Source: Chrysophaeum taylorii (lineage: Eukaryota > Sar > Pelagophyceae > Pelagomonadales > Pelagomonadaceae). From it: 64,000 nucleotides of DNA. Each line of letters begins with the position of its first letter. The stretch's first letter is position 1. Below are positions 29,256 to 55,224 of the stretch, piece by piece. The position numbers and the translations under genes are program-made. Where the stretch lies: positions 24,547 through 88,546 of the forward strand of contig JAQMWT010000490.1 of NCBI GenBank assembly GCA_029834535.1. Direction: 5' to 3'. Below the pieces are notes generated by a model, which saw only the letters and a list, made by a program, of their open reading frames with translations, was not told the DNA's origin and did no database searches.

Positions 29256-29920
29256 GTCGAGGAAGCCAGAATTCAGTTTTCTGACTTTTCTGACGGACCG
29301 GGTCGCTCATGGGAGCATGGTGTACGTACCCAGGGAACATAAATTTTGGGTACCTCTATGGCATCATAAAAAGTCCAAAGTTGGGATCAAGTGTATAACG
29401 GCTGCTACGTGGCTGCAACCCTGCCCTGACTCGCTTGAAGCCGCTCTAAAAAGAGGGACGCGCACAGAGGTGGCGGTGCGTGTGGGTGCTTGTAGGTTTT
29501 GGTGTGGTGTGTGGGCACGCGCTCAGAGGTGGTGTGGGGTGGGGTGGGGTGGGATGGGATGGGGTGGGGTGGCAGCCGAGCCTGGAATGGCAGCGCGCTT
29601 AGTTGCGGCCGCGGCCGCGGCCGCGGCCGCGATGTCGAGCAGGCTTCGCGCTCAGCGTGGTGGTCAGACCGGAAGTAGTAGGAGAACGGGAGCCAAAAGC
29701 CCGCGGAGGGAAAACAGGCCCGCGTGCACTTTGCGACGAGATCCCGGGGGTGAAAAACCCAAGGCGGAAGGCCGGGCCGCGCAACATACCTCAGCATCGA
29801 GGTGACCCCGGGGCTCACGCTCTCGAGGCGGCGGTGGGTCGTCCGGCCAGCCGCGTAACGCACGAAGTGGGTCTTGCGCACCCCCCCACACAAACACCGT
29901 GACCCCGCGCTTTACCGGAC
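29256..29920. other. GC-rich intergenic stretch with simple repeats
   Basis: Holds a GGGGTGGGGTGGGATGGGAT tract (about 29537-29570) and a (GCGGCC)n run at 29605-29631 made of overlapping NotI-type sites. A CpG-rich segment follows to about 29905. A plus-strand frame of 187 codons (29242-29805) spans these tracts and reads poly-Ala at the GCGGCC run; I do not support it as a gene. Confidence 0.4.
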
Positions 29921-30116
29921 TAGAGATAGAAATTTTGAATTAGGTTTAGTACCCCCCTATCCTAGGGTTAGCTCTCTTACTTTTAGCACCTTTTGATTTA
30001 AGAAAACGCTGTGTTATTCACGCCGGCTGTCCTCGTTACAGGAGACAGATACGAGGGCCGACTACCACTGCTCTCACTCTGCTGAAGGGTAACACAGTCA
30101 AAATTACTGTTCTCTA
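29921..30116 (+). repeat. 5' LTR of A1 (family A)
   Basis: 196 bp, starting TAGAGATAGAAATTTTG and ending ATTACTGTTCTCTA, with the TAGAGA/TCTCTA terminal inverted repeat. It contains AACGCTGTGTTATTCACGCC and CTCTGCTGAAGGGTAACAC blocks, conserved in the LTRs at 50985-51180, 51181-51355, 51632-51826 and 56027-56219. Confidence 0.85.
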
Positions 30117-30201: not shown

Positions 30202-32260
30202 ATGCCAACCAACCAAGAACTCCAGGAGGAGATAAAAGACCAAGAAGCTCGCATAGAGGCAAAGCACACGATGGAGATGCAAGCACAACATCAAATGATG
30301 CGAGCTCGAGCGCTACAAGCACTCCAAGCACAACTCAATGCCATGCAGACACTACCTGCCGTCGCTGCTGCGACTGCTCCCCCCACTCCAGCTCAACAAG
30401 ACCCCAAGCACAAGGCTAACACCTTTAGTGACCCACCTAGCGCCGTCCTCAGGTCAATGGACTCCGCTCAAGTCAGACCCCAAATGCTTTCATTTCGCGT
30501 TATGCAGTTGTTCGTCGAACATCTGATGCCTGAAACAGGCATAGCGCAATACTTATAGCAGGGCCTCTACGCGTGGGAATCCGTCTTACGTGGATGTAAT
30601 GATCTAGCTGACGCTCTTCTCAGCCACTGTATCAAGGAATATGACAAGGACCCCGACAACCACGCTACCGCCGGGAACACGCGAGATTTCCAAGGCCGTT
30701 ACGTCTACTACAAGGGCGTTTACCGCAAGTTCGGCAAACACTTCCTGGAGAACGTCTACGAGCCTAAGCTCCAAGAACTTAAAGACCAAGACAAGGACAC
30801 GACCGATAAGACCGAAGGAAAGTTGTATCCGACCACACAACCTCACCTCCAAGGAAAAGAAGCCGACTTCATCGTGTACCTCCGCGAGACCGTGCACCCC
30901 GTTTTTCGCCGTTTCCTGCTCGCCGGTAACGACTCCGTCAAGCACCCAGCATACGACGAAATCGATGCACTCGGATCCTCCCATCCGATAGGACTCGAAT
31001 TTGAGCTCAAAGTCCGCCTCGCACTTGACAAGCACACGGGCCAGAACCACGTCCACCATGCGCATTATGTTTATAATGCCTTCCTGGACACGCCGTTCAA
31101 CCCGGAGATCCACGAGCCTGCGCGTTATATCGATAATATGCGCCACGTTCAGCAACAACTTCGCCAAATTACAGACGATGCCTCTCTCCAACTTCCCGAC
31201 GACAAGATCCTCACGGAAATCCACCAGATGCTCCGGTCCAAGTACCCTCCAAGCTTGCTTGACTCCCGCGCCCCAACCCATATCAAGGGCTTCGCGCGTC
31301 TTGCCAACTGTCTGCGCACCCCCAACGACTCACTGTTACTCGACGAAGACAAAGAAGCGATAAATCATCTTCCCAAGTTGATCGCCCGCATCACGGTTAT
31401 CTCCACGTTCGAGCGCAACTTTTGGGCTCACCTCAAGCCTCATCCAACTCTGAACTTCAAGCCGTTGCGATTCGTCACTGACTTTGGTCGTCTGCCGACT
31501 AAAGACAAAGATAATCCACGTTTTCGCTCCCGCCGTCACGGTCACCACTTCACCGAAGATGATGATGACACCTCACCCTCTGAAGATGAAATCCCACCGG
31601 ATCCCGATGAAGCACCCCCTGAAGACACCGACCCTGTTGCCGTTTTTCTCACGGAAGCCAACCTCGATCCAGATAACGACAAAACTCTCATCCAACATCT
31701 TCACGCCTATCAATAAGCAACTCGCACGCCACCCCAAGAAACCTCCACCCAAAAAGCCTCCAACTCCTCGCTCCCCGTCGCACTACGACATCAATGACAG
31801 CACTAAGCCCAAGGTCACCCCTGTCACCCCAACCAATAACAAACACAATCCCCGTGCTTCTCCTGTCACCCCCGACAAACGCGAGCACCCGCACCTTCGC
31901 AAGGTCACTTTTCCCACTCAACCGCATCCCCCAACGCCATCTACTCCTGACCAACGCTTCAATGTCCCTCTTCGTGATGTTCGTCGCAAGCTCCAGGCCG
32001 TACGGAACCTGAGTCAAGCCGGTCGTCAACACACGTCCAACTCATAGCGCATGACCAGCTCATCAACCTCAGCACCACTATCTCCGATGAGATACTTCTC
32101 TCCGAGGCCGAATCGGATGCCGCCGAGTTTCTTCAGGTGCTATCGTCCGATCCTCAGGATGATCCACCCGACGAGGGCGAAGCCGACGAAAAAGATGACC
32201 AAGGCCACCTCGGTTTCTATGATGACCACGGACAGCTAGGCCTCTACGACGACATCATCC
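30202..32260 (+). pseudogene. Gag-like protein of A1 (nonsense codon and frameshift)
   Basis: The ATG at 30202 opens MPTNQELQEEIKDQEAR, a charged coiled-coil N-terminus also present in A4. An Ala/Pro linker (PPTPAQQDPK) and a capsid-like helical region follow, with VRLALDKHTGQNH and LLDSRAPTHIKGFARL. The C-terminus is acidic/Pro-rich. At 30556-30558 a TAG interrupts the frame. The same site is sense in A5 (GITQYFLQGF) and an independent TAG lies nearby in A4, so this is decay rather than programmed read-through. The frame continues to a stop at 31716, where A2 reads on; the tail is then split over other frames. No CCHC zinc knuckle was seen. The role is inferred from position, as in Ty1/copia Gag. 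Confidence 0.65.
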
Positions 32261-32269
32261 CCGAAATAG

Positions 32270-33253
32270 ATGATGAAGACGACTCCGCCGAGATTACGCA
32301 CAACGTCACAGCGACTACATGCGTGCTCTACACCAGAGTCAGCTTTTTCGCTGATGGTTGCCGACGACGCCTGTGCCGCCAACCACACATTATCGAATCA
32401 GGCCCTACGCCTCGCGATGAAGAATTTCCCGACCTCATCCACCCTCTCCCTCAGAGTCGCAAATTTTCTTTGTGCCACTTACACTCCAGGAAAGTCCCCC
32501 ACAAAGACTAACTCGCTACACGGATGCAATGGACCCGGCACTGAAATTTCGCTAATTGACGGTGGCGCATCATTTCACTTTTCATTTTGCTTCACTCGCA
32601 CAAACCAACATTTTGTTCCCGAGTCCATACGCGGGATTCCCGAATACACCATTCGAATGGGCAGAGGCACCTTAACCAGCCACTTCATCGGTGTCAAACC
32701 GTTGTATTTGCAGGCCGCAGGTCTCTCCTACAAGGATATCAAAGACTCCACAGGTTACGTCTTATACCTCGTCTTTCTGGTCGTCCCGCAATTCAGAAAA
32801 GGTCTACAGGTTATAGCGACATCTCAGCTCAAAGCTCTGAACGTCCAAGCAACAGACCCGCCACTGCCACACGAACCATACTTATATGAGCTTATGAACA
32901 CGTCGACCGCAGATCCCCACGATTATAAGACGCTTCTAGGCAAAACCGCAGTAGTTCTCGCCAATCGCCAAACTAATGGTCTATTGTCCCTGCCATCCCA
33001 TCCAAAGCAAACATTCCGCGCTGTGCTTAGTTTTCACACCGGAACGAGAATGTCACTCAAGGATGAGCTCGCACACATCACGCAGAACGTCGCGAAGACA
33101 CGCTCGCAATCTCATATGTTAGATTTCGCAAAATTACAGCATCATTCTATATTTTTGACGGAGCTTATCAGCCTCCCGCGTACTGTCGTCCAATATGCAT
33201 TCACTGGCTCAGCGGACCTCTCTGTGCAAGCACAACCCCCTCCGCTAAACACA
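32270..33253 (+). pseudogene. Retroviral-type aspartic protease region of A1
   Basis: The catalytic motif reads LIDGGAS with the Asp codon at 32558-32560, a variant of the copia D-[ST]-G-A signature. It is followed by FVPESIRGIPEYTIRMG and VVPQFRKGLQVIATSQLKAL. The region upstream (ACAANHTLSNQALRLAM) is in the same frame. The frame runs without a stop to the TAA at 33278-33280, which falls inside the following methyltransferase. Its expected role is processing of the polyprotein. A2 has His in place of the catalytic Asp. Confidence 0.65.
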
Positions 33254-35115
33254 GCCATTATTACAGGTGGACTCCACTAAGAAGGCTTTGACTCTTTTCG
33301 CAAACGCTTCGACAAACGCATTACTGTCGTGGTCGCCTGTGAAACTAACCCTAATATGCGCGCCCGCGCGCAACAACTCTTCCCGCACGCTCAGCATTAT
33401 GCGGATCTAAGAAAGCTCACTGCCGCTCTGCAAACCGGCAAAATACGACTACCTCAACTCGACTTGGCAGTCTTCACCTTGCCGTGTCAACATCTGAGTG
33501 TAATGAAAGAATATGACGGCTATGCCACTCCGGTGACCGCCGACCTTTTCGTCAAAGAACAAATCCGCTTTGTTCGTTGCACGCTCCCGACATACACCAT
33601 TGTCGAGAATGTACCCCCCAACCCCCGAAATCATCACGAGTACACTGAACTCGCCAACTGCTATCAGCGCATCGGTTATTTCAGACACTCCGGTGTCTAC
33701 AATGCCTCCGCTTTGGCGACGTCACAAGCAAGACCGCAGCCGGAACGTTCGCTGTGGGACGGGGTACGGCCGGGGGGCGCAGACGGAAGGTTATCGACGA
33801 GTTGGTTGTCAGTCACATCGCGGTTTCCTCGTCGCATGGCGACAAGCTTGATGATCACTCTCCGCCGACCCACCTTTCGGCGCCCCTCGTCTACAGGCCC
33901 GTGATTCCGGACTGGCTCCTGTCGGTCCGGCCTGGCTCCCATGCTCGGGAGAGGTCTGAAGTTAGTTAGTTATAAGCAAGACCCGCCACCTCGCTGCCTA
34001 TGTCCGACACCCGCTCACTGGCTACAACCTCGAGAAAACCGCTTCTCCTTGGTTAATATCTCCTCCGAGCATGGTTCCCCTCCTGGACCCCAGTCACACT
34101 ATCCCCGACGATCTCTGGATCGCCAACCCCGCCCTTCGTGGCACAGTGACCCGCTCCACATTCGACTATTGCCACAACAAGGCCACCTTCTCATACAAAC
34201 CCGCCAACGCCTCCAAACTCTCGATTTCCGAGAATGCACGCATCTGCCAAATGCTCACACGCTCGAAGAAGCCCTTTACGGATTTAGGACGCGACGCCGA
34301 CGGCACCCCCTATGCCTCGATGACCAATATCTCCCATCTCCTGGCATTCACATTGCTGCACAATCACTTGTCGCAACATCCTACTCTCGCCGCTTGGAAC
34401 ACCCTCCGCTGTTTTCATGCCTCAGAGTCACAATGTGCTTACCATTTGGATGGAGCCATCACCGGCACTGTCGCTACTGCCGTCGCATGTGGCTACTTCC
34501 CGCGCGCCTCCCTCACCCTCCATTCCAGGCCCCCTCAGATATTGGACTGTTCCCACCAACCCGCAGTCTTCTCCCCAACGCACACCTTTTCCATGGATGT
34601 CCCCAATGGCACCGCCTTTCTGGTCGTAGCAGGGCACCGCCTTTTCTGGTCGTAGCCTATACCAGTTCTTTGGCCGCCGCTCACAGCTGCTCGCGCCCCT
34701 CCACGTGGGTCCACTACATGAATCGCTCGCATCCCGGCGTTGCCACGATCGATTCACAAGGGCGAATCACACTCGATGACCCCACGGGACTCGTAATGTC
34801 CAAAGCACGTCCCACTTACGCGGACTATGTCGGCCACATCGGAGACACGCTTCAGAAAAGCACCAAGTGCTACTCGGTCACTGGCTCGTACCCAACCAAC
34901 ACGAGCTACTCCAACGCACTACTGCTGATCTCTCCCGACCACATCCGCTATGCGACTCTCAATGAAATCGCAAAGTTCGGACCCCACTCGGACCCGGAAC
35001 TGCTCCGCCTGTTCCAACAGCACCCGCCGTACTTCGCGTCCAAGGCACTGGCCAACGCCGTCCCGCACAACATGCTGCAGGCCAAGTACAGCGCTGTCCT
35101 CGCACTCCACGAATC
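33254..35115 (+). pseudogene. C5-cytosine DNA methyltransferase domain in the A1 polyprotein
   Basis: Motifs of the cytosine-C5 methylase family in order: a degenerate motif I (IITGGLH, with a TAA at 33278-33280 where A3 has CAG); motif II/III (VVVACETNPNMRARAQQLF, then ADLRKL); motif IV LPCQHLS with the catalytic Cys codon at 33485-33487; TADLF; motif VI IVENVPPNP (33602-33628); motif VIII GVYNASA followed by the interrupted DVTSK. After the SINE comes a long presumed target-recognition region. Motif IX follows (SVTGSYPTN, then IRYATLNEIAKFG) and motif X is KALANAVPHNML (about 35041-35077). Without the SINE this is roughly 540 codons, in range for the family. Further lesions: one base lost in the TTT run before the SINE (near 33714) and a 25-bp tandem duplication at about 34607-34657 that shifts frame. 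If ever active it would methylate cytosine at C5; the target sequence is unknown. Confidence 0.8.
33736..33973 (+). mobile_element. SINE-like element, subfamily 1, inserted in the A1 methyltransferase
   Basis: Flanked by the 10-bp duplication AAGCAAGACC at 33726-33735 and 33974-33983. The related copy A3 has no insertion at the homologous place (about 48990), giving an empty site. The element is 5'-truncated (starts at GCAGCCGGAACGTTCGC, lacking the GATGGAGGACGG head) and ends in GTTAGTTAGTTAT. Confidence 0.9.
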
Positions 35116-36610
35116 GCGCCATGTGAACCTTCACATCGAATGGGCAACCATACGCAATGGCATTCCCAGCCCCGGTGACATCAACCAGGTTGCAGAATTC
35201 TTCCTGAACATCTCCAGCCGTCTCTTAGCAGAGGAGGACCTCAACCTCACCTCCCTCCTCAGTGCCGTAGCAGATGCTCACCATGATGCGATCCGCAAGC
35301 CGAGCAAATCGAAAAACCTCGAGACGCTTCTCGCCGAGGCCACAGTTGGTAAAGTCCTAGTTGACAAGCGACCCAACCCCCCTAGCGCTTCGACTGCCGC
35401 TCTGCCCCCCTTGCACAAGCCCGGCACCATTCAGCACGCGGGAAGAGTGCTTTTGGTCACTCGCTGGCAGCGCATCCACCACCAACAAACAGAGAATCTT
35501 CGCCGCACGATTGCCGCCAATGTAACGAATCTCCGCCCACGTGATGATCGGTATCTGCAAGACTGCAGCGAATGCAAGCGCTGTCAATCGCATGTCAGCT
35601 TCCGTCACAAGAACACTTCCTGGTCACAGGATGAACTAGCCTACGCTCCTGGCCAACATCTCCATATGGATGTCTCATACCCGAGCATCAGCAATTGCTA
35701 TGGTGGCTTTCGTTACATCATGCATTTTCGTGTGATTATTTCGGCACACAAATGGGTATACTTCCTGAGGAAACTAGACGCGCAGGACGTTCTGGTTGGC
35801 ATCCTCTATGTGGTCAATGTGATTAAGGTCGAATTCGATGTAAGTGTGAAAATCATCTCATCTGAGACCTTTTCCACTTTCCGCTCCGAAGTTTTCCACC
35901 CGCTCAAGGTGCAGCTCGGTATCCAGCTTCAAATCATTGGTCGCCACCTACACCAGCGAAAATTCGCGGAAAACATCATTAAGGAAAACGCACGAGGCAC
36001 TGTACTCCGCCTCCTCAACCTTCGCAGTGTCCGCATCGAAGGAAGGCCTATCGCCGCCGAGTATTATCACCCGTTTGCTCTGCGGCATAAGATCCAAGCC
36101 GACAATCAGCGCTCTCATGGACTGCCCTCGCGCACTACCATGACCTGCACCGTCCCCCGGCGCATCATGTCACCCATGGCACCGCTCCTGAAGCTCCTTC
36201 CCTTTGGCGAACCTGTCACCTTTGTCTATCCTCAAAGTCACAAACTGGAAACCTTCAGCGTCTCCGCCTATTATCTTCATAGCAACAATTACCTCCCGAA
36301 CCTCCCCGGCACAGACCGATTTATCCGTGATGTTCATAGCTCTATCCTGCTTGTACATCGGGGGCGATATGGGAAAATCGTCACCTCTAACGACTCCCAC
36401 GTTGATGCTGACATGCCAGTCAACCGCAACAAGGAGATCGAACGGATCAAAGCACACACGCAGATCCCAACAGAGGCACGGCAAGAGGACCCGCTTCCAG
36501 CTATAAGCCAACAACAAATGCCGGAAATCAGACAGGAATCGAAAAACGAGGGCGAGACTCATGATGACGACCAGGATGATAAACCCGACGATGACGACGA
36601 GCACAAATAA
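35116..36610 (+). pseudogene. Copia-type integrase of A1
   Basis: The N-terminal zinc-binding module reads TRWQRIHHQQTENL then CSECKRC; the usual WHxRLGH has Gln for the first His here, while A2 has WHRINH. In the catalytic core the first Asp is in HMDVSYPS. The expected second Asp is Glu here (KIISSETFSTF) where A2 has Asp. The third acidic residue is Glu (KFAENII) where A2 has Asp. The C-terminal part (GEPVTFVYPQSHK; RGRYGKIVTSND) matches A2 closely. An acidic tail ends at a TAA (36608-36610) where A2 continues into RT. The role would be insertion of the cDNA. The copy is predicted inactive. Confidence 0.75.
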
Positions 36611-38947
36611 CCGGATCCAAACTCCGCTGCTGATCCAAGTCCCGTCAGCGACGAGACAGCTGAACATGATTTTTCGTTCCTCAACCGGCCACCTCCGCCG
36701 AATGGTAGCATTCCGATGCCCAAACGAAAGGATCGCTAATAGGTTGTTCTCGACGATGCAGGTTTTACTCCAGTTCTCGTGCATCGCAACCAGAGTGACA
36801 AACTCAAGGCAGATCTCAAAGACGAGCGCGGATTCCGCACTCGCAAGGATCAACTCTATATCGTGAAACGTGTCGACGATGGAAAACTTTTCACCAGACG
36901 CATTATCGCTTCAGAGTATGGTCGCAACTGGAAATACGAGCAGGAGCAATCCACGGCCCGCGCCACAGCCAACATGTCCAGCACATTGATGTTCCTCGTC
37001 AGTGTCAGCGCTCTGCACCAGGGCCATGTCGTCAGCATCGCATCTGATCTCAACATTAGAAGGGATGCTCAGCCGCCCGATGATGTCCCGAAAGGATGTC
37101 TCCAAGCAAATACCACGCAAGACTATGGTATCGCGGGCGGCACTGCACTGGATCTGCAGAGAGAACCGACGCAGAACTCTTGTACGTTGACTTCCCAAGG
37201 AGGCCGTACCACTCATCTGTATTGGTCGACCACCTGGACAACGACAATTCAGATCTCGAGAACTATGTGTGCCACGACGAACTGTCACCAGCAGAGTACT
37301 GTGCGCGTCAATGGAACCAAGAATTCTGTTGTATGAGCTCCTCTCTCTTATGGGACATTGCAGCGCATCAGCACTACCACTTAGCTTCTCGTCACAGACA
37401 TGCCTTCATGCATGATTCTGGCGAACTCGGACACCTCTTTCTAAGTCAAGGTGATCCGAACCTAGACATTTTTCAAGAAGTCATGGACTATGACTTGCAG
37501 CACATCGACCATGTCGTGTTACAACTCGTGACTGCTGAAGACATTGTCTATGAACCTGAGAAGATTGTCGAACTCAAAGGACTCCGCGAAGGAGATAAGC
37601 TCAAGCATATCGCTTCGATTCGCTAAGAAATTGAAGGCTTGTGCTCCAACGGCGTCTTTAAGCTTGAGCCTTTACCGCCAGACCGTTTGTCTATCTCGAC
37701 GAAACTCGTGCTGAAGATCAAGTATTTTGCTGACGGCACCCCACACCGCTATAAAGCTCGTCTAGTTGCCCGAGGTTTCTTGGCACGTGTCGGCATTGAC
37801 TTTTATGCCACATCTCCACCGAACGCGATGCTCGCCACCAACCGGTTATTGCTCGCCATCGCTGTGAAGCACAGGCTCCCGGTCGCGCACGCAGACATTC
37901 CCCTGGCATTCATCCAATCGGCACTCGATCGCCCGGTATGGATAGACTTACCTCGAGGAATACGTGTCTCACACAATCTTATCCAACAGATACAGAAAAA
38001 CCACCCAGAGTCCAAGTTAACTCTCCGACTCGTCAAGTCTAGCCTCTTTATGGTTTCAAACAGTCAGCTTTGTTGTGGAACATTAAGCTCGACTCGTTTC
38101 TTCGACAACATGAGTTCGAAAGCTCACAAGTCGTTACTTGCCTCTATATCAGTTGGGATCGATCTATCAACAGATGGGTTCTCCTATCCGTCTCTGTCGA
38201 TGACCTATTGATCACTGGTACCAACACTGCCAAATTCACGTCTCTTCGCACCGCACTGGAGAAGGAATATGGCAAAGGTACATGGCATGATAACATCCGA
38301 TCCTTCCTTGGTATCGATGTACACTACAACGTCTCCGCTGGTCATCTCACTATGAATGTAGCCGCGAAGATAAACAAGATGCTCGCCGAGCATAAACTCA
38401 ACCTCCATACTACTGACGTCCCCTACTCGGACATTCCCACTCAAAAACCTTCTGCTGAGCTTCTCTCCGACTTGGCTCCCACTTTAGAAATTTACGCAAG
38501 CATTTTCCTCACTACCGTGGCACTAGTATTTACTTGTCTGTCACAAGTCGCCCAGATATCTCCACTCTGTGCAACAAATGCCGCAAGGGTATGCACAACC
38601 CTGAGCAGACCCATCTTCTGCACTTGTATGTTTTACTTCGCTATTTGAAGGGTACTCCGAATGATTCTCTCGACTATTCATCCGACAGCCCCTATATTAC
38701 GCCCTTTCTCCAGCATCTGATCGGAAACTACCCAGAATTGCATCACCTTCGTTCGCCCATTATTTGTTTTACTGACGCCAGTTTCCGCTGACCGTTCTGA
38801 CCATCGCTTAAGATCTCATTCTGGTGCATGTATTTTCGTATTTGGCAGAGTCGTATTCTGGTCTAGCAAACGCCAAACTCTTACTGCCAAAAGCACCATG
38901 GAAGCCGAACTCATCGCCGCTAGCGCTGCCGCTGATGAATGTTAATG
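36611..38947 (+). pseudogene. Copia-type reverse transcriptase and truncated RNase H of A1
   Basis: RT motifs are spread over several frames: YKARLVARGFLARVGIDF, then AHADIPLAFIQSALDRPVW with a catalytic Asp, then SVDDLLITGTN with the paired Asp residues. RNase H follows with LKGTPNDSLDYSSDSP, FTDASF and AKSTMEAELIAASAAADEC. It is cut at 38947 before the last conserved Asp motifs. Lesions include TAA/TAG near 36737, a TAA at about 37624 and frameshifts near 37170, 38040 and 38790. The catalytic residues themselves are kept. Confidence 0.8.
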
Positions 38948-39133: not shown

Positions 39134-41689
39134 ACGCCCTCGCAGATTGAACTCGGTGATGAGCGAAATCTGGAACAAACAAAACAAATGTCTGGCCAGA
39201 GACAATTAATTGGACGTTGAGTTGTGAGGAGGCGTTGAATGAGAAGTGTGTGAAGTGCATGAGACAGATAGAGTAGAGCGGAATAGCAGGTGAGTGTGAG
39301 TGAGAAAGGAGAAAGAGCGCGAAGTTGAACGGGGAATAGGTTGAGAGGGGAAGCAGAATGAAAAGGATATTGCAAGAAGAGGTGAATGATCTAACTAACT
39401 AACTAACTTCAGACCTCTCCCGAGCATGGGAGCCAGGCCGGACCGGCAGGAGCCGGTACGGAATCACAGAGGAAAATTCACGCAGTTGGGGCAGAGGCGA
39501 GGGACGAGGACGGACTTGTTGATGGTGGACCGTCACTGCGCGCGGTCTTGTGCGAGGTCGTGCAAAAGCGTCGCAGGCCGCGGACTTTTTGGTCCACGAA
39601 CAATCGACCTGTCCGTCGCGTTCTGCCCAACCGAGCGAACCCCATCCCAGCGCGGACTTTCCGGGTGCTAACCGGCCAGCCCGGGAGGCGAGGTGAATGA
39701 TCAAGGAAAGGAAAAGGCATCCATCGTCAGGAAGAAGAAAAGTGAAGGAAGATACTAAGTGAGCTAATGGCGAAATATGGCGAATGCTGTACGAGAGATC
39801 AGATCATCATCTTGTTCAGTGACTGATGAGATAAGGGACGGTGCGTGCCGGTGGATAAATCCTAAGTGGGTGGGGGATCCTCGTAGTATAACGGGTGGTC
39901 TAACTGATAACAACAGTAGGGATCATGGGTCAGGCAGTCGGGAATTGTGCAGCAAATCAATGATTGATCGAAAGCGAATAGTGAGAATGGCCGTAGGGAT
40001 GAGATTCTATTGTGACTAAAGTTGGGCTGTAAAAGTGTGACGATGTGACTGAGCGACAGCGTTGTCCCATGAAGAGATATGACCATTGAACCAAATCGGT
40101 TTCGACATGGTAAGGTGATCGTCGTAATGATTGCGAGTAGTGCGGAGCTGTTCCTGGAAGATGAGAGAACCAGAATTGCCGGTCACATACGTGTCGAAGC
40201 TGTCGTCCTGAGTGTTGTGTGGGGCAGCTGAAGCTATACTATGGGCGTCTAAAATAATATGCGGATAATCGTAGCGCGATGAGGATATCGGGATAAAGTT
40301 GTCTGGGGGTGGCCATAAATATGAAAACTCCAAATTTGCTGTAGACATGGAGTTGTGGTCTGGTGGAAGTCGCCACACTGGCCATCATCGATAGATGATT
40401 GGGCTGGGACTGAGGTTTGCGAGTGTGTCGCGTATGATGGTGGATACAGGCGTGTGTCCTGTGCTGAAGAGTCAGTGCCCTGTGCAGAAGAGTTGGGCAA
40501 CAGGAGTAAATGCCTGAAGGCGATGGACTGTTTGAAGATATTGTCCGTGCCAGGGGGAGAGTTGACTTCGAAGGTATGGTCGGAGTCGCATCTTTCGTGT
40601 TCTATTCGGCAAAGTAATCCTGAACTGTGACATTGACTGATCCAGTATTCATTTCATGTCCGGAGTCGTTTTCACCAGAATCAAACTTCCCTTGATGTAC
40701 AAGCGCGAGGGTTTGTGGTGCATCCCTGGAGAATCGTGCAGTGACTGGAAGATGAAACATTCGACAGAAGGGTGTTGTCGATATGCAAGAGCTGTACAGT
40801 ATACAACGTGTAGGGAGCGTATGTTTCAAGAGAGGATTAATCTGTTGACGGGGGATGTCCGAAGAATGAACAAGATGTGAGGTGATGTCCATAATGCGAG
40901 AACTGTCCGATAAGGAGTCATGCGAGACTGTGGCTAGCAGCGAGTGTGCTGGAATGGAGGAATAGATGGGCGTGGCAGTTAACTTCCCTTGATTCGCAAC
41001 ACAACTGGGTGGGGCTAGCGGTGTGCGGTAGTGACATCCGGTAGAATGCGGAGAGCAGAGCGCGTGTCCAACCCGTGGAGATGGGGGTTTATCCTCGCGG
41101 GTTGTGAACGGAGAGGAGCGAATCGGGTGCGTCATAAGAGCGTAATACGCTAGTGCAGTCTGAGCTGTGTCCGAAACAGGATTCTGATAGTAATGTCGAC
41201 AGTCGCGAGATATGATCAGAACTGGTCGAAGATGGCGCGTGAAGTTGTGTTGGAACCGAACCATTGTGGTGCAGAGCTTCAACGTCAAGCATAGTGCTGG
41301 GAGGGACGTTAAAAGAGGCGAGCAAAGGATTCTGCGTGCGGCTATCATTTAGTGGCGGGCATTTATTGCGCGAGACTGGCGATAACTGCGACGTGTGGCT
41401 TTGGCGTGACAGAACTTCGTTCGCATATGGCAGCATGCAGGATAAAATCGAGCGAGCTGAAACTTGAGAGGTGTGACCTGCAAGAGACTGACGGAAGAGC
41501 GTGGGGGGCTCTGAATTGCATTGATGACGGAACTTAGTGTCATCACAAATCGTCGGGGATTTGGTCGTCGGGAGTCGCATTGAAGCGGGGAGGAACGACG
41601 AGTGCTTGTCAGGTCTTGGAGTGTGACAGAGGTCCTTAGGAAGAGGGACTTCGGTACGTGCCTTGAAGTGAATTCCGATGTAGCCTATC
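39134..41689 (-). other. 3' internal segment probably of a family-B element
   Basis: Lies upstream (minus strand) of the LTR at 38948-39133 and is fused at about 41690 to the A2 reverse transcriptase. It contains minus-strand open frames of 163 codons (41580-41089), 248 codons (41348-40602) and 120 codons (40378-40016). All are Ser/Thr/His-rich and lack recognisable domains. Composition is like element sequence rather than the array. A SINE sits at 39392-39689. Confidence 0.4.
39392..39689 (-). mobile_element. SINE-like element, subfamily 2, 5'-truncated, with 13-bp target duplication
   Basis: Flanked by GAGGTGAATGATC at 39379-39391 and 39690-39702. Its (TTAG)n tail is at the left edge on the minus strand. 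The right end stops at GCCTCCCGGGCTGGCC, lacking the roughly 110-bp head of full copies. Confidence 0.9.
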
Positions 41690-43630
41690 TAAGGTAGTAG
41701 CCAAGTCCGAGAGAAGTTCAGTAGAAGGTTTTTGGACGAGGATGTCCGAATAGGGAACGTCTAGGCTATGTAGGTTGCGCTTATGCTCAGCAAGCATCTT
41801 GTTGATCTTCGCTGCTACATTCATAGTGAGATGACCAGCGGAGACATTGTAGTGGACATCGATGCCAAGAAAGGATCTGATGTTGTCATGCCATGTACCC
41901 TTGCCATATTCGGCCTCCAGAGCGGTGCGAAGAGACGCAATTTTGGCAGTGTTGGTACCAGTGATCAATAGGTCATCGACTGACACGGATAGTAATACCC
42001 ATGTGTTGATAGATCGATCTCAATTGATATAGACACAAGTATCGACTTGTGAGCGTTCGAACTCATGTTGTCGAAGAAATGAGTCGAGCTTAATGTTCCA
42101 CAACAAAGCTGACTGTTTGAGGCCATAGAGAGCCTTGACGAGTCGGAGAGCGAGCTTCGACTCTGGATGGTTCTTCTGTATCTGCTGGATAAGATTTGGC
42201 GAGACACGTATTCCACGAGGAAAGTCGATCCATACGGGGCGATCGAGTGCCGATTGGATGAATGCCTGAGGAATGTCCGCGTGCGCGACCGGGAGCTTGT
42301 GCTTCACAGCGATGGCGAGCAGTAGCCGGTTGGTAGCGAGCATTGCGGTTGGGGAGGATGTGGCATAAAAGTCAATGCCCACACGTGCCAATAAACCTCG
42401 GGCGACTAGACGAGCTTTGTAGCGGTCTGGAGTGCCGTCAGCGAAATACTTGATCTTCAGCAAGAGCTTCGTCGAGATAGACGAACGGCCTGGTGGTAAA
42501 GGCTCAAGCTTAAAGACACCATTCGAGCACAATCCTTCAATTTCCTTGCGAATCGAAGCGATCTGCTTTAACTTATCTTCTTCGCTGAGTCCTTTGAGTT
42601 CGACAATCTTTTCAGGCGCATAGACAATATCTTCAGCGGTCACAAGTTGTAACACGACATGATCGATGTGCTGCAAATCATAGTCCATGACTTCTTGTAT
42701 AATATCTTGATTCGGATCACTTTGACTTAGGAAGAGGTGACCGAGTTCGCCACAATCATGCATGAAGGCATGCCTGTGACGAGAAGCTGGATGGTATTGT
42801 TGATGCGCGGAGATGTCCCACAAAAGAGAGGAACCCATACCACAGAATTCTTGGTTCCATTGACGCGCACAGTACTCTGCCGGTGACAGTTCGTCGTGGC
42901 ACACATAGTTCTCGAGAACAGAATTGTCGTTATCAAGGTAGTCAACCAATACAGATGAGTGGTACGGCTTCTTTGGGAAGTCAACATACAAGAGTTCTGC
43001 GTCGGTTTCTCTCTGCAAATCCAGTGCGGTGCCGCCCATGATACCATAGTCTTGTGTGGTACTTACTAGGAGACATCCTTTCGGGACATCATTAGGCGGC
43101 TTAGCATCTCCTCGAATGTTGAGAGCAGAGGCGATGCTGGCGGCGTGGCCCTGGTGCAGAGCGCTGACACTGATGAGGAACATCAATGTGCTGGACATGT
43201 TGGCTGTGGCGTGAGCCGTGGATTGCTCCTGCTGGTATTTCCAGTTGCGACCATACTCTGAGGCGATAATGCGTCTGGTGAAGAGTTTCCCATCGTCAAC
43301 ACGCTTCACGATGTAGAGTTGATCCTTAGGGATGCGGAATCCACGTTCGTCATTGAGATCTGCTTTGAGCTTATCGCTCTGGTTACGATGCACGAGAACT
43401 GGAGTAAAACCGGAATCGTCGAGAACAACCTCTAGGCGATCTTTTCGTTTGGGCGTCGGAATGCTACCATCCGGCGGAGGTGGCCGGTTGATGAACGAAA
43501 AATCCTGTTCAGGTGTCGCGTCGCTGACGGGACTTGAATCAGCAGCGGGAGTTGGATCCAGTTCTTTGTGTTTGTCGTCATCGCTAGGTGTGTCATCGTG
43601 CTCGTTCGTCTTCGTGAGTCTCGCCCCCAT
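41690..43630 (-). pseudogene. Copia-type reverse transcriptase of A2
   Basis: A single frame of 536 codons (43630-42020) covers the IN-RT linker (SDATPEQDFSFINRPPPPDG) and most of RT: YKARLVARGLLARVGIDF, AHADIPQAFIQSALDRPVW and VKALYGLKQSALLW. One TGA at about 42020 replaces the TGG Trp codon that A5 keeps (IKWDRSIN). The same frame then continues with SVDDLLITGTN to 41690, where homology stops; RNase H is missing. It is the best-preserved RT in the window and needs only one base change to be open over this length. Confidence 0.85.
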
Positions 43631-43644
43631 TTTTTGATTTCGGT

Positions 43645-44900
43645 CTAGCTTCCGGCATTTGCTGTTCGCTTATAGCTGGTAGCGGGTCCTCTTGTCGTGC
43701 CTTTGTTGGGATCTGTGCAAGTGCATTGATCCGTTCGATCTCCTTGTTTCGGTTGACTGGCATGTCCGCGTCGACATGAGAGTCGTTTGGGGTGACGATT
43801 TTCCCATATTATAGCTGGTAGCGGGTCATCTTGTCGTGCCTCTGTTGGGATCTGTGCAAGTGCTTTGATCCGTTCGATCGCCTTGTTTCGGCTGACTGGC
43901 ATGTCCGCGTCGACATGAAAGTCGTTTGAGGTGACGATTTTTCCATATCGCCCTTGATGTACAAGCAGGATAGAGCTGTGAACATCACGGATAAATCGGT
44001 CCGTTCCGGGGAGGTTCGGGAGATAGTTGTTACTATGAAAGTAAGAGGCAGAGACGCTGGAGAGTTCCAGCTTGTGACCTTGAGGGTAGACAAAAGTGAC
44101 AGGTTCGCCAAAGGGGATAAGCTTCAAGAGCGGTGCCGTGGGTGACATGATGCGCCGGGGAACGGTGCATGGCGTGTGCGTGCGCGAGGGCAGGCCATGA
44201 GAGCGCTGGTTGTCGGCTTGGATCTTATGCAGGAGAGCGAATGGGTGATAATACTCAGCGGCAATAGACTTCCCTTCGATGCGCACACTGCGAAGGTTGA
44301 GGAGACGAACCACGGTGCCTCGGGTGTTTTCCTTGATAATGTTGTCAGCAACGTTCCGCTGGTGGAGGTGGCGACCAAGGATTTGGAATTGGAGACCAAG
44401 CTGCACCTTGAGGGGGTGAAAGGCTTCAGAGCGAAAAGTCGAGCATGCGTCAGAGGATATAATCTTGACATGGACATCGAATTCGATTTTGATCACATTG
44501 ACCACATAGAGGATGCCTGCCAGAACATCTTGTGCGTCTAATTTCCATAGGAAATAGACCCATTTGTGTGCTGAGATAATACACACGAAGTGCATGATAT
44601 AGCGAAATCCGCCGTAGCACCTGCGGATGCTCGGGTATGACACATCCATGTGGAGGTGTTGGCCAGGAGCATAGGCCAGTTCATCCTGTGACCAGGAAGA
44701 GTTTTTGTGACTGAAGCTTACATGCTATTGGCAGCGCTTGTATTCACTGCAGTCTTGCAGATACTGATCGTCACCTGGGCGGAGATTCGTTACATTAGCG
44801 GCAATCGTGCGGCGAAGAATCTCTGGTTGCTGGTGGTTTATGCGGTGCCAGCGAGTGACCAAAAGCACTCTTTCGGCGTGCTGAGTGGTGCCGGGCTGGT
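43645..44900 (-). pseudogene. Copia-type integrase of A2
   Basis: The zinc module reads WHRINHQQPEIL then CSEYKRC, so one zinc Cys is Tyr (A1 has CSECKRC); a TAG follows shortly after. The catalytic core is open from 44649 for 334 codons: MDVSYPSIRR (first Asp), KIISSDACSTF (second Asp) and RNVADNII, where Asp stands for the third acidic residue. At about 43685-43825 a phrase around CGGGTCATCTTGTCGTGCC is tandemly duplicated, adding about 140 bp at the integrase C-terminus. Confidence 0.75.
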
Positions 44901-45797
44901 GCAAGGGAGGCAGAGCGGCAGTCGAAGCGCTGGGGGGGGGCTGGATCGCTTGTCGACTCGGATTTTAGCAATGGTTGCCTCGGCAAGAAGCGTCTCGAGG
45001 TTTGTCGATTTGCTTGGTTTGCGGATCGCATCATGGTGAGCATCTGCAACGGCATTGAAGAGGGAGGTGAGGTTCAGGTCTTCCTCTGCTAAGAGACGGC
45101 TGGAGATGGCTGAGAAGAATTCTGCAACCTGGTGGATGTCTCCAGGGCTGAGAATGCCATTGCGTATTGTAGCCCATTCGACGTGAAGGTTCACGTGGTG
45201 GTGCGATTCGTGGAATGCGAGGACAGCGCTGTACTTTGCCTGCAGCATATTGTGCGGGACTGCGTTGGCCAGTGCCTTAAACGCGAAGTACGGCGGGTGC
45301 TGTTGGAACAGTCGGAGCAGTTCCGGGTCCGAGTGGTGTCCAAACTTTGCGATTTCGTTGAGGGTCGCATAGCGGATGTGGTCTGGAGAGATCAGCAGCA
45401 AGGCATTAGAGTAGCTCGTGTTGGTGGGGTACGAGCCGGTGACCGAGTTGCACTTGGTGCTCTTTTGAAGCGTGTCTCCGATGTGGCCGACATAGTCCGC
45501 GTACGTGGGACGTGCTTTGGACATTACGAGTCCCTTGGGGACATCGAGAGCAATTCGCCCTTGTGAGTCGATCGCGGCAAAGCCAGGGTGCGAACGATTC
45601 ATATAGTGGACCCAAGTGGACGGGCGCGAACAGCTGTGAGCGGCGGCCAAGGAGGTGGTATAAGCGACGACCAGAAAGGCGGTGCCCTTGGGAACATCCA
45701 GGGAAAAGGAGTGCGTTGGGGAGAAGGCTGCGGGTTGATGGGGACAGTCCAAAGTCTTAGGGGGCCTGGAATGGAGGGTGAGGGAGGCGCGCGGGAA
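44901..45797 (-). pseudogene. Residual C-terminal part of the methyltransferase in A2
   Basis: Retains the target-recognition-like region (ASESQCAYHLDGAI at its start), SVTGSYPTN, motif IX IRYATLNEIAKFG and motif X KALANAVPHNML (about 45243-45278 on the plus strand). Motifs I-VIII, including the catalytic Cys, are absent: the protease sequence PHEPYLY joins straight to ASESQCAY. The frame changes near 45780 and again before integrase. Confidence 0.75.
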
Positions 45798-46260
45798 TTA
45801 GCCACAGGCGACGGCAGTAGCGGCGGTGCTGGTGATGGCTCCATCCAAATGGTAAGCACATTGGGACTCTGAGGCGTAAAGGTAGGGCTCGTGTGGCAGT
45901 GGCGGGTCTGTTGCTTGTACATGCAGAGCTTTGAGCTGAGATGTTGCAATAACTTGATGACCTTGCCGGAATTTGGGGACGACCATAAATACGAGATATA
46001 AAGCGTAACCGGTTTTGTCTTTTGTGTCCTTTGGAGAGAGACCTGCAGCCTGCAGATACAGCGGTTTAACACCGATGAAGTGGCTGGTGAGAGTGCCTCT
46101 TCCCATATGAATGGTGTGTTCGGGAATTCGGCGGATGGTCTCGGGAACAAAATTTTGAATTGTGCGCGTAAAGCAAAAAGATGCGCCACCGTGTATCAAT
46201 GAGGTTTCAGTGCCGGGGCCATTGCATCCGTGCAGTGAGCTAGTCTTCTTTTAGGTCTTG
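45798..46260 (-). pseudogene. Aspartic protease region of A2 (active-site Asp replaced)
   Basis: Reads LIHGGASFCFTRT, where A1 has LIDGGASFHFSFCFTRT: the catalytic Asp is His and four residues are missing. The following FVPETIRRIPEHTIHMG and VVPKFRQGHQVIATSQLKAL agree with A1 and A3. The frame then runs across the deletion joint into methyltransferase C-terminal sequence. Confidence 0.7.
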
Positions 46261-46396
46261 TCTGAGGTGTAAGCGGCACAAAGAAAATCTGCGACTCTTG
46301 TGGAAATAGTTGATGAGGTCGGGAAATTCGTCATCTGGAGGTTTGGTGCCTGATGAAGTAAGGTGTGGTTGGCGGCACAGGCGTCGTCGGCAACCA

Positions 46397-48030
46397 TCAG
46401 CGAAAAAGCCGGCTCTTGTGGAGAGCACGCATGTAGTCACTGTGACGTTTGGCGTAGTCTTCGGCGGAGTCTTCTTCATCATTGTTTTCGGGAATGGCGT
46501 CGTCGTAGAGGTCTAGCTGACAGTTGTCGTCATAGAAACCGAGATGTCCTTTGTCGTCTTGTTCATCGGTTTCTGCTTCGCCCTCATCAGGTTGACCGTC
46601 TTGGGGATCGGACGTTAACATCTGGAGGAATTCGGCGGCGTCATTTTCGGCTTCGGAAAGAAGTATCTCGTCGGAAATGGTGGTGATGAGGTTGATTAGC
46701 TTGTTCATATGCTCGGAGCTGGACGTATGTTGGCGACCGGCTTGGCTAAGATTCCGGATGGTTTGGAGCTTGCAACGGACTTCACGAAGGGGGACCTTGA
46801 AGCGTTGGTCTGGAGTGGATGGTTTGGGTGGATGAGGTTGTATGGGGAAGGTGACCTTGCGAAGATGCGGGTGCTCTCGTTTGTCAGGGGTGACAGGAGG
46901 AGCGCGGGGACGGTGCTTGTTCTTCGGCGGGGTGACAGGGGTGGCCTTGGGCTTAGGACTGTCATTGACGTCGTAGTAAGACGGGGAGCGAGGATTATGA
47001 GGCTTTTTGCCTGGAGGGGGCTTTTTGACGTGCCGCGAAATTTGCTTCTTGCGGTAGGCGTGTAGTTGGTAAATGAGGTCATTGTCCTCCTCTTGATCAA
47101 TATTGGCCTCCGTGAGAAAAACGGCGACGGGGTCGGTGTCTTCAATGGGGTCCGGTGGGGTGTCGTCTTCAGACGGAGAGGTGTCATCATCGTCTTCGGT
47201 GAGGTGGAGACCATGACGGCGGGAGCGAAAGCGGGTGTTGTCTTTATCCTTTGTTGGCAGACGACCAAAGTCCGCAACGAAGCGCAAAGGCTTGAAGTTA
47301 AGAGTGGGGTGAGGCTCGAGGTGAGCCCAAAAGTTGCGCTCGAACGTTGAGATGACGGTGATGCGAGCGATGAGCTTAGGAAGGTGGTGGATGGCGTCCT
47401 TGTCTTCGTCGAGTAACAGCGAATCGTTGGGAGTGCGCAGACAGTTAGCAAGACGTGCAAAGCCGTTTATGTGTGTTGGGGCGCGGGAGTCAAGCAAGCT
47501 TGGGGGGTACTTGAATCGGAGAATTTGGTGAATTTCTTCGAGGATCTTGTCGTCAGGAAGTTGGAGAGAAGTGTCCGTGGTGATCTGGCGGAGTTGCTGC
47601 TGGACATGACGCATGTAGTCGGTGTAGTGACCTGGCTCATGTATTTCAGGGTTGAACGGCGTGTCCAGAAAGGCATTGTAAACATGCGCATGGTGGACGT
47701 GGTTCTGGCCCGTGTGCTTATCGAGTGCGAGGCGAACTTGAAGCACAAATTCGAGTCGTATCGGGTAGGAGGATCCGAGTGCATCGATTTCGTCGTATGC
47801 TGGGTGCTTGACGGAGTCGCTACCGGCATGCAAGAAACGGCGAAAGAGGGGGTGTACGGTCTCGCGGAGATATACGATGAAGTCGGCTTCTTTTCCTTGG
47901 AGATGTGGTTGAGTGATTGGATACAATTTGCCTTTCGTTATATCGTTTGGGTTTTTGTATTGATCTTTGAGTTCTTGGAGTTTTGTACGAGCTTCTTGTT
48001 GTCTTAAGCGAGCTTCTTGTTCTCTTATCT
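46397..48030 (-). pseudogene. Gag-like protein of A2
   Basis: Open for about 540 codons from the fusion joint at 48030 to 46397, the longest intact gag in the window. It starts within the coiled-coil N-terminus (IREQEARLRQQEARTKLQEL). It has lost about 120 residues between there and the LQELKDQ region that A1 has, including the PETGI segment. It continues through LALDKHTGQNHVHH, LLDSRAPTHINGFARL, a Lys/Pro-rich stretch (KKPPPGKKPHNPRSPS) and an acidic tail (EEDSAEDYAKRH). The basic Pro-rich stretch could bind nucleic acid (inference). Confidence 0.65.
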
Positions 48031-49879
48031 CCTGTTTATGGTCGTCCCCAAATTCCGGCAAGGTCTTCGAGTTATTGCAACATCTCAGCTCAAAGCTCTG
48101 CATGTACAAGCAACAGATCCGCCACTGCCCCACGAGCCCTACCTTTACGAGCTTCCAAATTCCTCAACCTCAGACCCCCACAATTATGCAACATTTATAG
48201 GAAAGACCGCCGTCGTACTTGCCACTCGCAAGCCAAACGGCCTGTTGTCCCTGCCATCCCACCCAAAGCAAACATTCGCCACTGTGGTTAGCTTCCACAC
48301 AAGAAAACGAATGTCACTCAAAGACGAGATTGCACACATCACACAGCATGTCGCAAAGACACGCTCACAATCGCACACGCTTGACTTCGCGAAGTTACAA
48401 AATCATTCACTGTATCTCAATGAACTGCTCAACATCCAATCTCCTGTCGTCTACTACGGCTTCAATGGCTCAGCAGACCTCTCTGCGCAGTCGCAACCCC
48501 CTCTGCTTAAAACCGCCATTATTGCAGGTGGACTCCACCAGAAAGGTTTCGACACTTTTCGCAAGCGATTCGACAAACGCCTAACTGTCGTAGTCACCTG
48601 CGACAAATCAACGATATCCTGCGCACCCGTGCGCAACACCTCTGTCCGCATGCCAAGCAAAATGCGGACCTCAGAAAACTCAATGCCGCACTCCAAACCG
48701 GCAAAATCCGACTCCCTACATTCGACCTGGCAGTTTTTACATTGCCCTGCCAACATCTGAGTGTAATGAAAGACTACGACGGTTATGACACTCCGGTCAC
48801 CGCCGACCTTTTTGTCAAAGAACAACACCGCTTCGTTCGTTGCACGCTCCCGACCTATACCATTGTCGAGAACGTCCCTCCCAATCCCCGCACTCACCAT
48901 GAGTATGCTCAACTCGCCAAAGGTTATCAGCGCTTAGGCTACTTCCGCCACTCCGGCGTCTACAATGCCTCTGCTTTTGGTGATGTCATCAGCAAGCCAC
49001 GCTATCTCGCTGTGTATGCCCGGCACCCGCTCACCGGCTACAACCTCGAGAAAACCGCCTCTACTTGGTTAACCTCGCCTCCGAGCATGGTTGCTCTCCT
49101 GGATCCCAGTCACACCATCCCTGACGATCTCTGGATCGCCAAACCCGCCCTTCGTGGTACACTGCCCCGTTCCATATTGGACTACTACCAGCACAAGGCC
49201 ACCTACTCCAACAAGCCCACCAACGACTCGAAACTCTCGATTTCCGAGAATGCCCGCCTCGGCCAAATGCTCGCACGTCTCACCAAGCCCTTCACGGATC
49301 TCGGTCTATATGCCGACGGCACCCCCTACGCCACGATGGCGTCCATTTCCAACCTACTGGTTTTCACGCTCCTGCGCAACCATTTGTCGCAACACCCCTC
49401 TCTCGCCGCTTGGAACACCATCCGCTGTTTTCATGCCTCAGAGTCCCATGTGCTTACCATTTGGATGGAGCCATCACCAGCACCGCCGCTACTGCCGTCG
49501 CCTGTGGCTACTTCCCGCACGCCTCCTCACCCTCCATTCCAGCCCCCCTAAGACTTTGGACTGTTCCCATCAACCCGCAGTCTTCTCACCAACGCACTCA
49601 TTTTCCCTGGATGTTCCCAAGGGCACCGCCTTTCTGGTCGTCGCTTACACCACCTCCTTGGCCGCCGCTCACAGCTGTTCGCGCCCGTCCACTTGGGTCC
49701 ACTATATGAATCGTTCGCGTCCTGGCTTTGCCGCGATCGACTCACAAGGGCGAATTGCTCTCGATGACCCCAAGGGACTCGTAATGTCCAAAGCACTTCC
49801 CACTTACGCGGACTATGTCGGCCACATCGGAGACACGCTTCAAAAGAGCACCAAGTGCTACTCGGTCACTGGCTCGTAG
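48031..49879 (+). mobile_element. Copia-type retrotransposon fragment A3 (protease to methyltransferase)
   Basis: A plus-strand fragment wedged between the minus-strand copies A2 and A4. It begins inside the protease (FMVVPKFRQGLRVIATSQL) and ends at VTGS, just before methyltransferase motif IX. The right joint with A4 shares the 8-bp microhomology GGCTCGTA. Confidence 0.8.
48516..49879 (+). pseudogene. C5-cytosine methyltransferase of A3 (catalytic part, motif IX/X missing)
   Basis: Motif I region AIIAGGLHQKGFDTF; motif II VVVTCD; then a frameshift of 2 bases near 48605. Next are ADLRKL, motif IV LPCQHLSVM with PCQ at 48745-48753, TPVTADLF, motif VI IVENVPPNP (ENV at 48868-48876), and GYFRHSGVYNASAFGD then SKPRYLAVYAR for motif VIII, uninterrupted. 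From about 48742 the frame is open into the recognition region until one base is lost near 49446 (after the ESQ codons of the homologue). Truncated at 49879. This copy shows the A1 SINE site empty and is the clearest view of motifs I-VIII. Confidence 0.8.
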
Positions 49880-54861: not shown

Positions 54862-55224
54862 CTTCCCTTACCCTGATCGCCGACCGCATGGTTGCGATGG
54901 AGGACGGTGCCTCATGAATCCTGAGCCTTGCGAGGGCATCCGCCCTCCCGGCGTAGGTTGGCACCTATTCGCCTCTCGGGCGGGCCGGTTGGCAGCCGGA
55001 ACGTTCGCAGTGGGACGGGGTATGGCCGGGGGGCGCAGACGGAAGGTTATCGACGAGTTGGTTGTCAGTCACATCGCGGTCTCCTCGTCGCATGGCGACA
55101 AGCATGATGATCACTCTCCGCCGACCCACCTTTCGGCGCCCCTCGTCTACAGGCCCGTGATTCCGGACTGGCTCCTGTCGGTCCGGCCTGGCTCCCATGC
55201 TCGGGAGAGGTCTGAAGTTAGTTA
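54862..55224 (+). mobile_element. SINE-like element, subfamily 1, full length, in A5 gag
   Basis: Flanked by GTTATGCCTGTTTCA (54847-54861) and GTTATGCCCGTTTCA (55225-55239), a 15-bp duplication with one difference. It has the complete head (CCTGATCGCCGACCGCATGG, then GATGGAGGACGGTGCC) and ends AGTTAGTTA. About 363 bp. Confidence 0.9.

Follow-up and report, generated by a model that had tools for sequence, protein, structure and literature searches.

Retrotransposons that carry a cytosine-C5 DNA methyltransferase (MTase) have been described in Klebsormidium and Symbiodinium. KnitGypsy-Dnmt3 of Klebsormidium nitens, as presented in passages of PMC5890265 (de Mendoza et al. 2018), is a Ty3/Gypsy element with a Dnmt3-clade MTase. 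Like the elements analysed here, it has a C5 MTase in the Pol of an LTR retrotransposon and forms an intronless, expanded family under purifying selection; ours, however, are copia elements with PCQ (family A and the protein P0001) or PCT (family B) at motif IV. SymbioDIRS-Dnmt3 and SymbioLINE-Dnmt of Symbiodinium are also many-copy MTases borne by retrotransposons, but of the DIRS and LINE kinds; according to the same passages, SymbioDIRS domains methylated CG in yeast, the SymbioLINE MTase is of an orphan type (set against the present domain by its description only), and the Symbiodinium Copia superfamily is without any DNMT domain. An earlier note on the DNA studied here had cited captures in copia and gypsy elements of dinoflagellates and charophytes as precedents, which holds for Gypsy in Klebsormidium but not for copia in Symbiodinium. 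Gypsy elements of the orchid Phalaenopsis likewise captured a nucleic-acid-modifying enzyme, an AlkB m6A demethylase, although this one demethylates RNA and lies in an extra open reading frame (passages of PMC9289625). One sentence in the available passages of a 2025 paper (PMC12344493) refers, with a citation of the 2018 work, to 'LTR Copia and DIRS' as having DNMT3 members; the authors of that paper may thus have come across a copia case before. Beyond that sentence, a literature lying mostly outside subscription journals yielded no described copia element with such a domain, and passages of PMC3145265, PMC11453091, PMC12477816 and PMC2806351 contained no copia element of this kind. Retrotransposon C5 MTases are known from LINE, DIRS and Gypsy elements, and what is, to our knowledge, new is a copia clade with a stable Pol domain that does not look like DNMT3, found in two divergent families and a third source.

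The window, by which we mean the whole 64,000-nucleotide stretch of Chrysophaeum taylorii DNA analysed, holds several remnants of these elements (Table 1). Ty1/copia elements (Pseudoviridae) of plants and fungi encode, in this order, gag, protease (PR), integrase (INT), reverse transcriptase (RT) and RNase H. The elements of the window have RVT_2 in common with them and carry, between PR and INT, the C5 MTase domain that the earlier note had proposed from motif peptides, all of which we found in the window's translations. A Pfam scan of the window's open pieces placed both regions that it had named above the PF00145 (DNA_methylase) cut-off of 22 bits: one match lies at 33281-33901 (37.8 bits, E 2e-9, profile positions 22-153) and the other at 48511-49548 (32.8 bits, E 6.7e-8, profile 45-164), and the matches stop upstream of motif IX. 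In copy 1, an LIDGGAS protease lies inside ORF 32270-33280, and copia RT (PF07727) is matched downstream of the MTase at 37627-38211 (E 3.8e-17) and 38043-38648 (E 5.5e-17). The frame at 33905-36607 has no Pfam match of its own; its integrase region is named through 87% identity to another genomic copy, L009, itself a weak rve match (E 0.0061).

Table 1. Remnants of MTase-bearing copia elements in the window, with window positions
Feature	Positions	Strand	Remarks
Approximate 5' LTR-like region, copy 1	29919..30114	+	homologous to L009 from base 457 (83%); length of ~195 bp borrowed from L032 and L033; ends approximate
gag-region ORF, copy 1, decayed	30559..31716	+	no Pfam match; collinear with L009 gag
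Protease (LIDGGAS near 32553-32573), linker and start of motif I, copy 1	32270..33277	+	stop at 33278-33280; no Pfam match; PR 82% to L009
MTase core, copy 1	33281..33734	+	motifs II (ACE), III (ADL), IV (LPCQ), VI (IVENVP) and start of VIII region; PF00145 E 2e-9
234-bp repetitive insertion breaking the copy 1 MTase	33735..33968	.	four other near-full window copies, 96-98%; ~14 bp flank overlap
Remaining motif VIII region and long spacer/target-recognition region (TRD), copy 1	33969..34909	+	86% to L009 TRD
Motifs IX-X (IRYATLNEIAKFG, ALANAVPHNML), copy 1	34910..35203	+	90% to L009
Integrase region, copy 1	35567..36466	+	87% to L009 INT
Reverse transcriptase, copy 1	37576..38450	+	PF07727 E 3.8e-17, 5.5e-17; 89% to L009
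Second copy	41688..47983	-	gag, PR 46256-45897, MTase core deleted (junction near 45876), rest of spacer, IX-X, INT 44748-43849, RT 42595-41726
Inverted fragment in gag of the minus-strand copy	48026..49878	+	end of PR, linker, MTase core 48488-49065, spacer; PF00145 E 6.7e-8; 95% to L009 3534-5386
Decayed family B relative	59805..60479	+	MTase core pieces 59805-60083, spacer 60168-60479; tblastn with L036 Pol: 47%, 41% identity; E 1e-16, 1e-13

Both copies of the MTase region in the window are decayed. Copy 1 has an in-frame stop just after the start of motif I, the 234-bp insertion and frame changes. The region near 48 kb, previously taken for a second copy of the element, is instead an inverted fragment within the gag of a minus-strand copy, and the spacer between motifs VIII and IX, put at about 350 codons in the earlier note, measures about 310 in our alignment A1 (R181 to Y494). 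The deletion that removed the MTase core from the minus-strand copy could have marked a non-autonomous subfamily; we rejected this candidate, the junction being spanned only at the window's own place among the 40 best of 224 candidates scored.

Three other features of the window came to light. The 234-bp short repeat occurs in five near-identical full copies (33735-33968, near 54992-55224, 14010-14243, 16397-16630 and 61351-61583) and in several other loci of the genome. The strongly decayed remnant at 59805-60479, absent from the earlier note, is a third MTase-copia remnant, of family B type. On the minus strand, 26376-28952 is an 858-codon open frame whose repeats are rich in alanine, arginine and aspartate (RAKRALDARDA...); it may encode a repeat protein or have arisen by chance in GC-rich DNA.

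We searched the host genome (70.8 Mb in 697 contigs) for further copies. With 123 of 474 candidates scored, PF00145 gave at least 57 matches. Two of these are host genes; the other 55, all above 22 bits and spread over many contigs, coincide with places matched by the core of family A. That core in turn gave at least 152 matches (150 of 470 candidates scored). A single natural open frame of 1952 codons in L009 covers protease, MTase, integrase and RT, with PF00145 at E 1.1e-7, the rve-like stretch at 1016-1110 (below cut-off) and RVT_2 downstream of it at 1686-1933 (E 1.6e-38); an in-frame stop follows RT, ahead of the RNase H part. The domain is thus joined in frame to protease and integrase rather than being a separate host gene, the alternative raised in the earlier note. 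A search of the genome for intact copies, which it had suggested, found motifs I to X within one open frame in 9 of 20 fetched 10-kb stretches. Taken by themselves, the broken copies of the window might have been a chance match, a host gene or an assembly artefact adjoining a retrotransposon. The 55 matches, the shuffled controls described below and above all the open frames joining PR, MTase, INT and RT already refute that explanation, and we give it practically no weight.

The family A element is ordered gag, PR, MTase, INT, RT. In the three copies that we looked at (L009, L017 and L019), there is a 37-nt overlap of gag with Pol in the -1 frame; it contains CTTTTTC, which is not a textbook slippery heptamer. 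LTR pairs bound L032 (196 bp, 93.9% identical) and L033 (195 bp, 95.4%). Shorter LTR pieces, clipped by the ends of the stretches, occur in L009 (125 bp, 84%), L010 (83 bp, 97.6%) and L015 (62 bp, 98.4%), and none was found in L014, L017 or L018; LTR-to-LTR spacing is about 9.2-9.6 kb. The same genome holds copia elements with a gag_pre-integrs domain (at least 150 matches, 150 of 206 candidates scored), so not all of its copia elements need belong to the MTase clade.

What kind of enzyme does this domain resemble? PF00145 matches all nine family A copies and the P0001 domain in alignment A1 at E<=1. Searched against the PDB, the A1 profile found M.HaeIII (E 0.008, with a weak second piece of 4.1 bits in the motif IX-X region), the 'cytosine-specific methyltransferase' 8yf3 (0.021) and M.HhaI (0.025). 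The RNA helicase DOB1, a chance match at E 0.16, ranks above DNMT1 (0.27 and weaker), and the 25 matches at E<=10 include no DNMT3A, DNMT2 or DNMT5 chain; a single sequence gave no match in the PDB. Against four phage C5 MTases, family A reached hhalign 97.4% (E 1.4e-11; best of 60 shuffles 1.1%), and phage proteins of phrog_116 and phrog_363 match at 24-28% identity with a best E of 3e-6 (15 of 19 records listed). The NCBIfam dcm superfamily is matched at E 2.8e-8, below its cut-off. AlphaFold2, run on the P0001 domain with window pieces, gave values too low to inform on the fold (pLDDT 35.4, pTM 0.23). We conclude that this Pol domain is almost certainly MTase-derived, and its affinities suggest, at low resolution, an origin from a prokaryotic- or phage-type C5 MTase.

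M.HaeIII, M.HhaI and the phage enzymes, its best matches, have the same motif order. Unlike the present domain, all of these are free-standing enzymes with canonical motifs I and VIII, visible for the phage MTases in the aligned rows, and with a spacer shorter than the one found here. Canonically, motif I is FxGxG and motif VIII QxRxR. None of the three lineages has the canonical motif I (AGGLH in A, GGGLY in P0001, CSGLS in B), so that SAM binding is putative. At motif VIII, A and P0001 keep one Arg and not QxRxR, while B keeps QxRER. Motif IV is PCQ in A and P0001 and PPCT in B, set against PCN in DNMT3. The lineages agree in E-x-x-P-P at motif VI, and motifs IX and X read RYATLNE and NAVP (A), RYMTIRD and NAVP (P0001) and RYPTRPE and NALP (B). 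The catalytic Cys of motif IV and Glu of motif VI are present in 29/29 copies of family A, in 10/10 of family B and in P0001. With 64 of 192 core columns invariant in family A, this conservation is only moderate evidence within A alone; in family B, 109 of 207 columns are invariant, and 2 of the 10 copies have stops. Overall, the sequence describes a divergent domain derived from C5 MTases whose activity is predicted, and the domain is likely to be catalytically active in at least some family members.

DNA might not be its substrate at all. A domain in this place in Pol would be packaged with RNA, and an RNA m5C methyltransferase could modify the genomic RNA and the tRNA primer within the particle, with effects on priming, stability or sensing. 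Enzymes of the DNMT2 type are C5 MTases that act on tRNA, and the copies are without a CpG mutation signature (see below). An active captured RNA-modifying enzyme is known in the orchid Gypsy elements (passages of PMC9289625). However, the domain has no special likeness to DNMT2: family A reaches hhalign 0.4% against the host DNMT2, compared to the 97.4% against phage MTases, which are annotated as DNA methyltransferases. In addition, the long spacer lies in a position like that of a DNA target-recognition region. We therefore hold an RNA substrate to be unlikely.

A relative from outside this genome is P0001, a 2396-aa ENA protein and the sole hit (E 6.8e-19) among 7086 candidates. It has the domain order of family A (PR, MTase, INT, RT) and 30% identity to it, and the two have PCQ, the motif VI Glu, PP, the motif VIII Arg and NAVP in common. 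Its isolated domain is barely over the PF00145 cut-off (22.6 bits, E 8e-5); scanned over its whole length against Pfam at E<=0.1, the protein matches RVT_2 only and not PF00145.

A second family came from an unexpected quarter. Three copia stretches, taken from the RVT_2 list as presumed MTase-free controls, carry a divergent MTase in the same slot. In one of them, L036, the motifs read CSGLS (I), VESD (II), PPCT (IV), AEMTPP (VI), GDYQSRERW (VIII), RYPTRPE (IX) and SNALP (X). This family B is abundant, with at least 152 core matches (150 of 934 candidates scored), and PF00145 was not seen at E<=10 in L036, the sole B frame scanned with a core (those of L034 and L035 are without it). Aligned with three rows of B, family A plus P0001 gave hhalign 96.6% (E 5.3e-10) over 492 columns that run from motif I through the spacer to motif X, whereas the best of 60 column shuffles reached 2.9% and the reversed control 0.4%. 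By part, the first 230 columns alone gave 91% and the remainder 32%. Family A alone is not significant against B (1.0%), B against P0001 gives 46%, and B alone has no match to the phage MTases (0.5%). P0001 is therefore the intermediate through which B is assigned, and most of the support comes from the first 230 columns.

Two small trees with flagged long branches, built without DNMT1, DNMT3 and DNMT6 rows, group the three lineages. In the RT tree (9 rows, P0006 not among them for want of an RT match), A, B and P0001 come out as one clade (100/99) against P0003, P0004 and P0005; in the MTase tree (12 rows), they are together at 97/98. A recurrent capture, in which A, B and P0001 each acquired an MTase, would fit the high divergence of B and the published pattern in LINE, DIRS and Gypsy elements (passages of PMC5890265). 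Yet the domain occupies the same PR-INT slot in all three, the match is collinear over the 492 columns including the spacer, E-x-x-P-P is common to them, and the RT and MTase groupings agree. Separate acquisitions thus seem very unlikely. Being common to two divergent copia families and P0001, the domain looks ancestral to a clade, and very probably is. The earlier note, which had spoken of 'such a capture, possibly independent', was right about a capture in copia Pol and understated its extent.

Relatives beyond this clade proved hard to find. Scans of viral_contigs with A1, P0001 and L036 gave no relative, and for the isolated domain, the 8000 candidates with the most shared words included no match at E<=1. 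The alignment search, also with 8000 candidates scored, matched P0003-P0006, none of which matches the A+B+P0001 profile at E<=10; P0003 and P0004 have no MTase profile match. By motif search, 138 residues separate PR from the INT zinc finger in P0003, compared to about 817 in P0001 (the zinc motif was not found in P0004). The copia protein P0005 has a candidate methylase-like stretch of its own between integrase and RT, at residues ~1036-1200 (FSGPYKRPDGL, APPCSTFS, LWLIENP); neither Pfam nor hhalign supports this PPC...ENP stretch as an MTase.

The MTase core is under purifying selection. We calculated pairwise Nei-Gojobori dN/dS for 30 rows of family A (L004 and L025 being one locus, and pairs not independent), using blast matches covering >=80% of a segment, here and in the residue counts; shorter second pieces in L015 and L023 were left out. 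Over rising dS classes, core dN/dS falls from 0.33 through 0.20 and 0.15 to 0.13, which fits constraint on active lineages together with decay of single copies. In the last two classes (dS 0.3-0.6, 104 pairs; dS 0.6-1.5, 192 pairs), the core values of 0.15 and 0.13 are near those of protease (0.15/0.12), gag (0.13/0.09) and RT (0.14, first of these classes only), and below those of the PR-MTase linker (0.21/0.17); integrase is lower still (0.10/0.08). Family B, whose eight short stretches were picked from 152 listed places, gave core values of 0.16 (9 pairs, dS 0.05-0.2), 0.06 (2 pairs) and 0.07 (10 pairs, dS 0.4-0.8).

Selection of this kind might also preserve a domain that has lost catalysis, or most of it, and is kept as a module binding DNA or chromatin, used to steer integration or in particle assembly. 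Motif I is degenerate in all three lineages, motif VIII is altered in A and P0001, and B has PPCT; moreover, the spacer (0.18/0.15) and the IX-X region (0.16/0.19) are constrained about as strongly as the core. A pure binding module, however, would not need the Cys and Glu, and their retention in every copy counted, also across 30% identity, counts against this explanation, which we find doubtful while granting it some weight.

If the domain methylates DNA, it would do so in a genome where two other C5 MTases were detected. L001 is a host DNMT2-like gene (match to 1g55, E 3.9e-39). L002 (G000:C621:15462-18998), of 844 codons in the stretch, matches 7r76 over residues 46-685 (E 3e-143); this structure was deposited as 'DNA repair protein Rad8', and we take it to be the Cryptococcus Dnmt5 entry, which would make L002 DNMT5-like. 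DNMT5 is a maintenance-type enzyme in fungi. This inventory covers the best-scoring candidates of a six-frame, exon-by-exon search, which can miss genes: none of the 57 PF00145 matches, from 123 scored of 474 candidates, is DNMT6, and a search for the DNMT1-RFD domain, made without a positive control, gave no match. In passages of PMC9998398, DNMT6 is reported from pelagophytes and other stramenopiles, and DNMT3 is reported to be missing from most stramenopiles other than diatoms and, it seems, from the haptophytes studied, which agrees with our detecting only DNMT2 and DNMT5.

Among other host genes, the light-harvesting (LHC) family PF00504 has 84 matches in the genome. The closest structures to the best of them are four LHCI chains of 9vfj, followed by light harvesting protein, iFCPI-3, VCPI-1 and fucoxanthin chlorophyll a/c binding proteins, which points to an alga of the chlorophyll a/c type. 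Contigs C88, C390, C533 and C539 carry clusters of PF00504 genes whose scores are the same or almost so, several of them in tandem.

The copies themselves show no trace of long-term CpG methylation, in that their differences have no CpG excess. Among family A copies, C/T differences are not raised before G (C>T 0.0259 at CG compared to 0.0271 overall), and the highest trinucleotide rate, 1.75x the mean, is at ACT. CpG observed/expected is 1.01-1.07 in nine A elements, 1.26-1.46 in five host loci and 0.82-0.94 in three B stretches, themselves MTase-bearing.

Considering all of this, we favor, with modest confidence, an old Ty1/copia lineage in which a C5 MTase, acquired once, became a permanent Pol domain that methylates the cDNA or fresh insertion of the element. 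A prokaryotic- or phage-type enzyme would have been acquired before the lineages of A, B and P0001 split. Made within Gag-Pol, whose gag and pol overlap in the -1 frame, the MTase may, given its place in Pol, be packaged alongside RT and integrase and released by the protease. It could then methylate cytosines of the new cDNA or of the freshly inserted copy, and such marks could be perpetuated by the host DNMT5. Methylation of cDNA, the published proposal for the other captures (passages of PMC5890265), appears to be the simplest use of the domain; that the element's own cDNA or DNA is the main substrate is perhaps an even call, short of probable. The altered residues of motifs I and VIII, PPCT in B and the lack of a CpG mutation excess count against methylation.

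The capture described here appears as a fixed, old copia Pol domain under selection about as strong as that on the protease. A domain retained for so long must serve the element, and this makes it possible to test directly why a transposon would methylate DNA. Because family B was invisible to Pfam in the copy tested, surveys based on Pfam may miss such domains, suggesting that their frequency is possibly underestimated. With active-site residues kept by evolution, the elements may mark DNA themselves. It seems decidedly unlikely, although worth stating, that the copia clade supplies de novo cytosine methylation to the alga, the elements marking their own new copies and whatever else they reach and DNMT5 maintaining the marks, so that the methylome would be seeded by the very parasites that it is expected to silence. 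If active, the domain would nevertheless be a candidate for the source of de novo methylation in this alga, where only DNMT2 and DNMT5 were detected.
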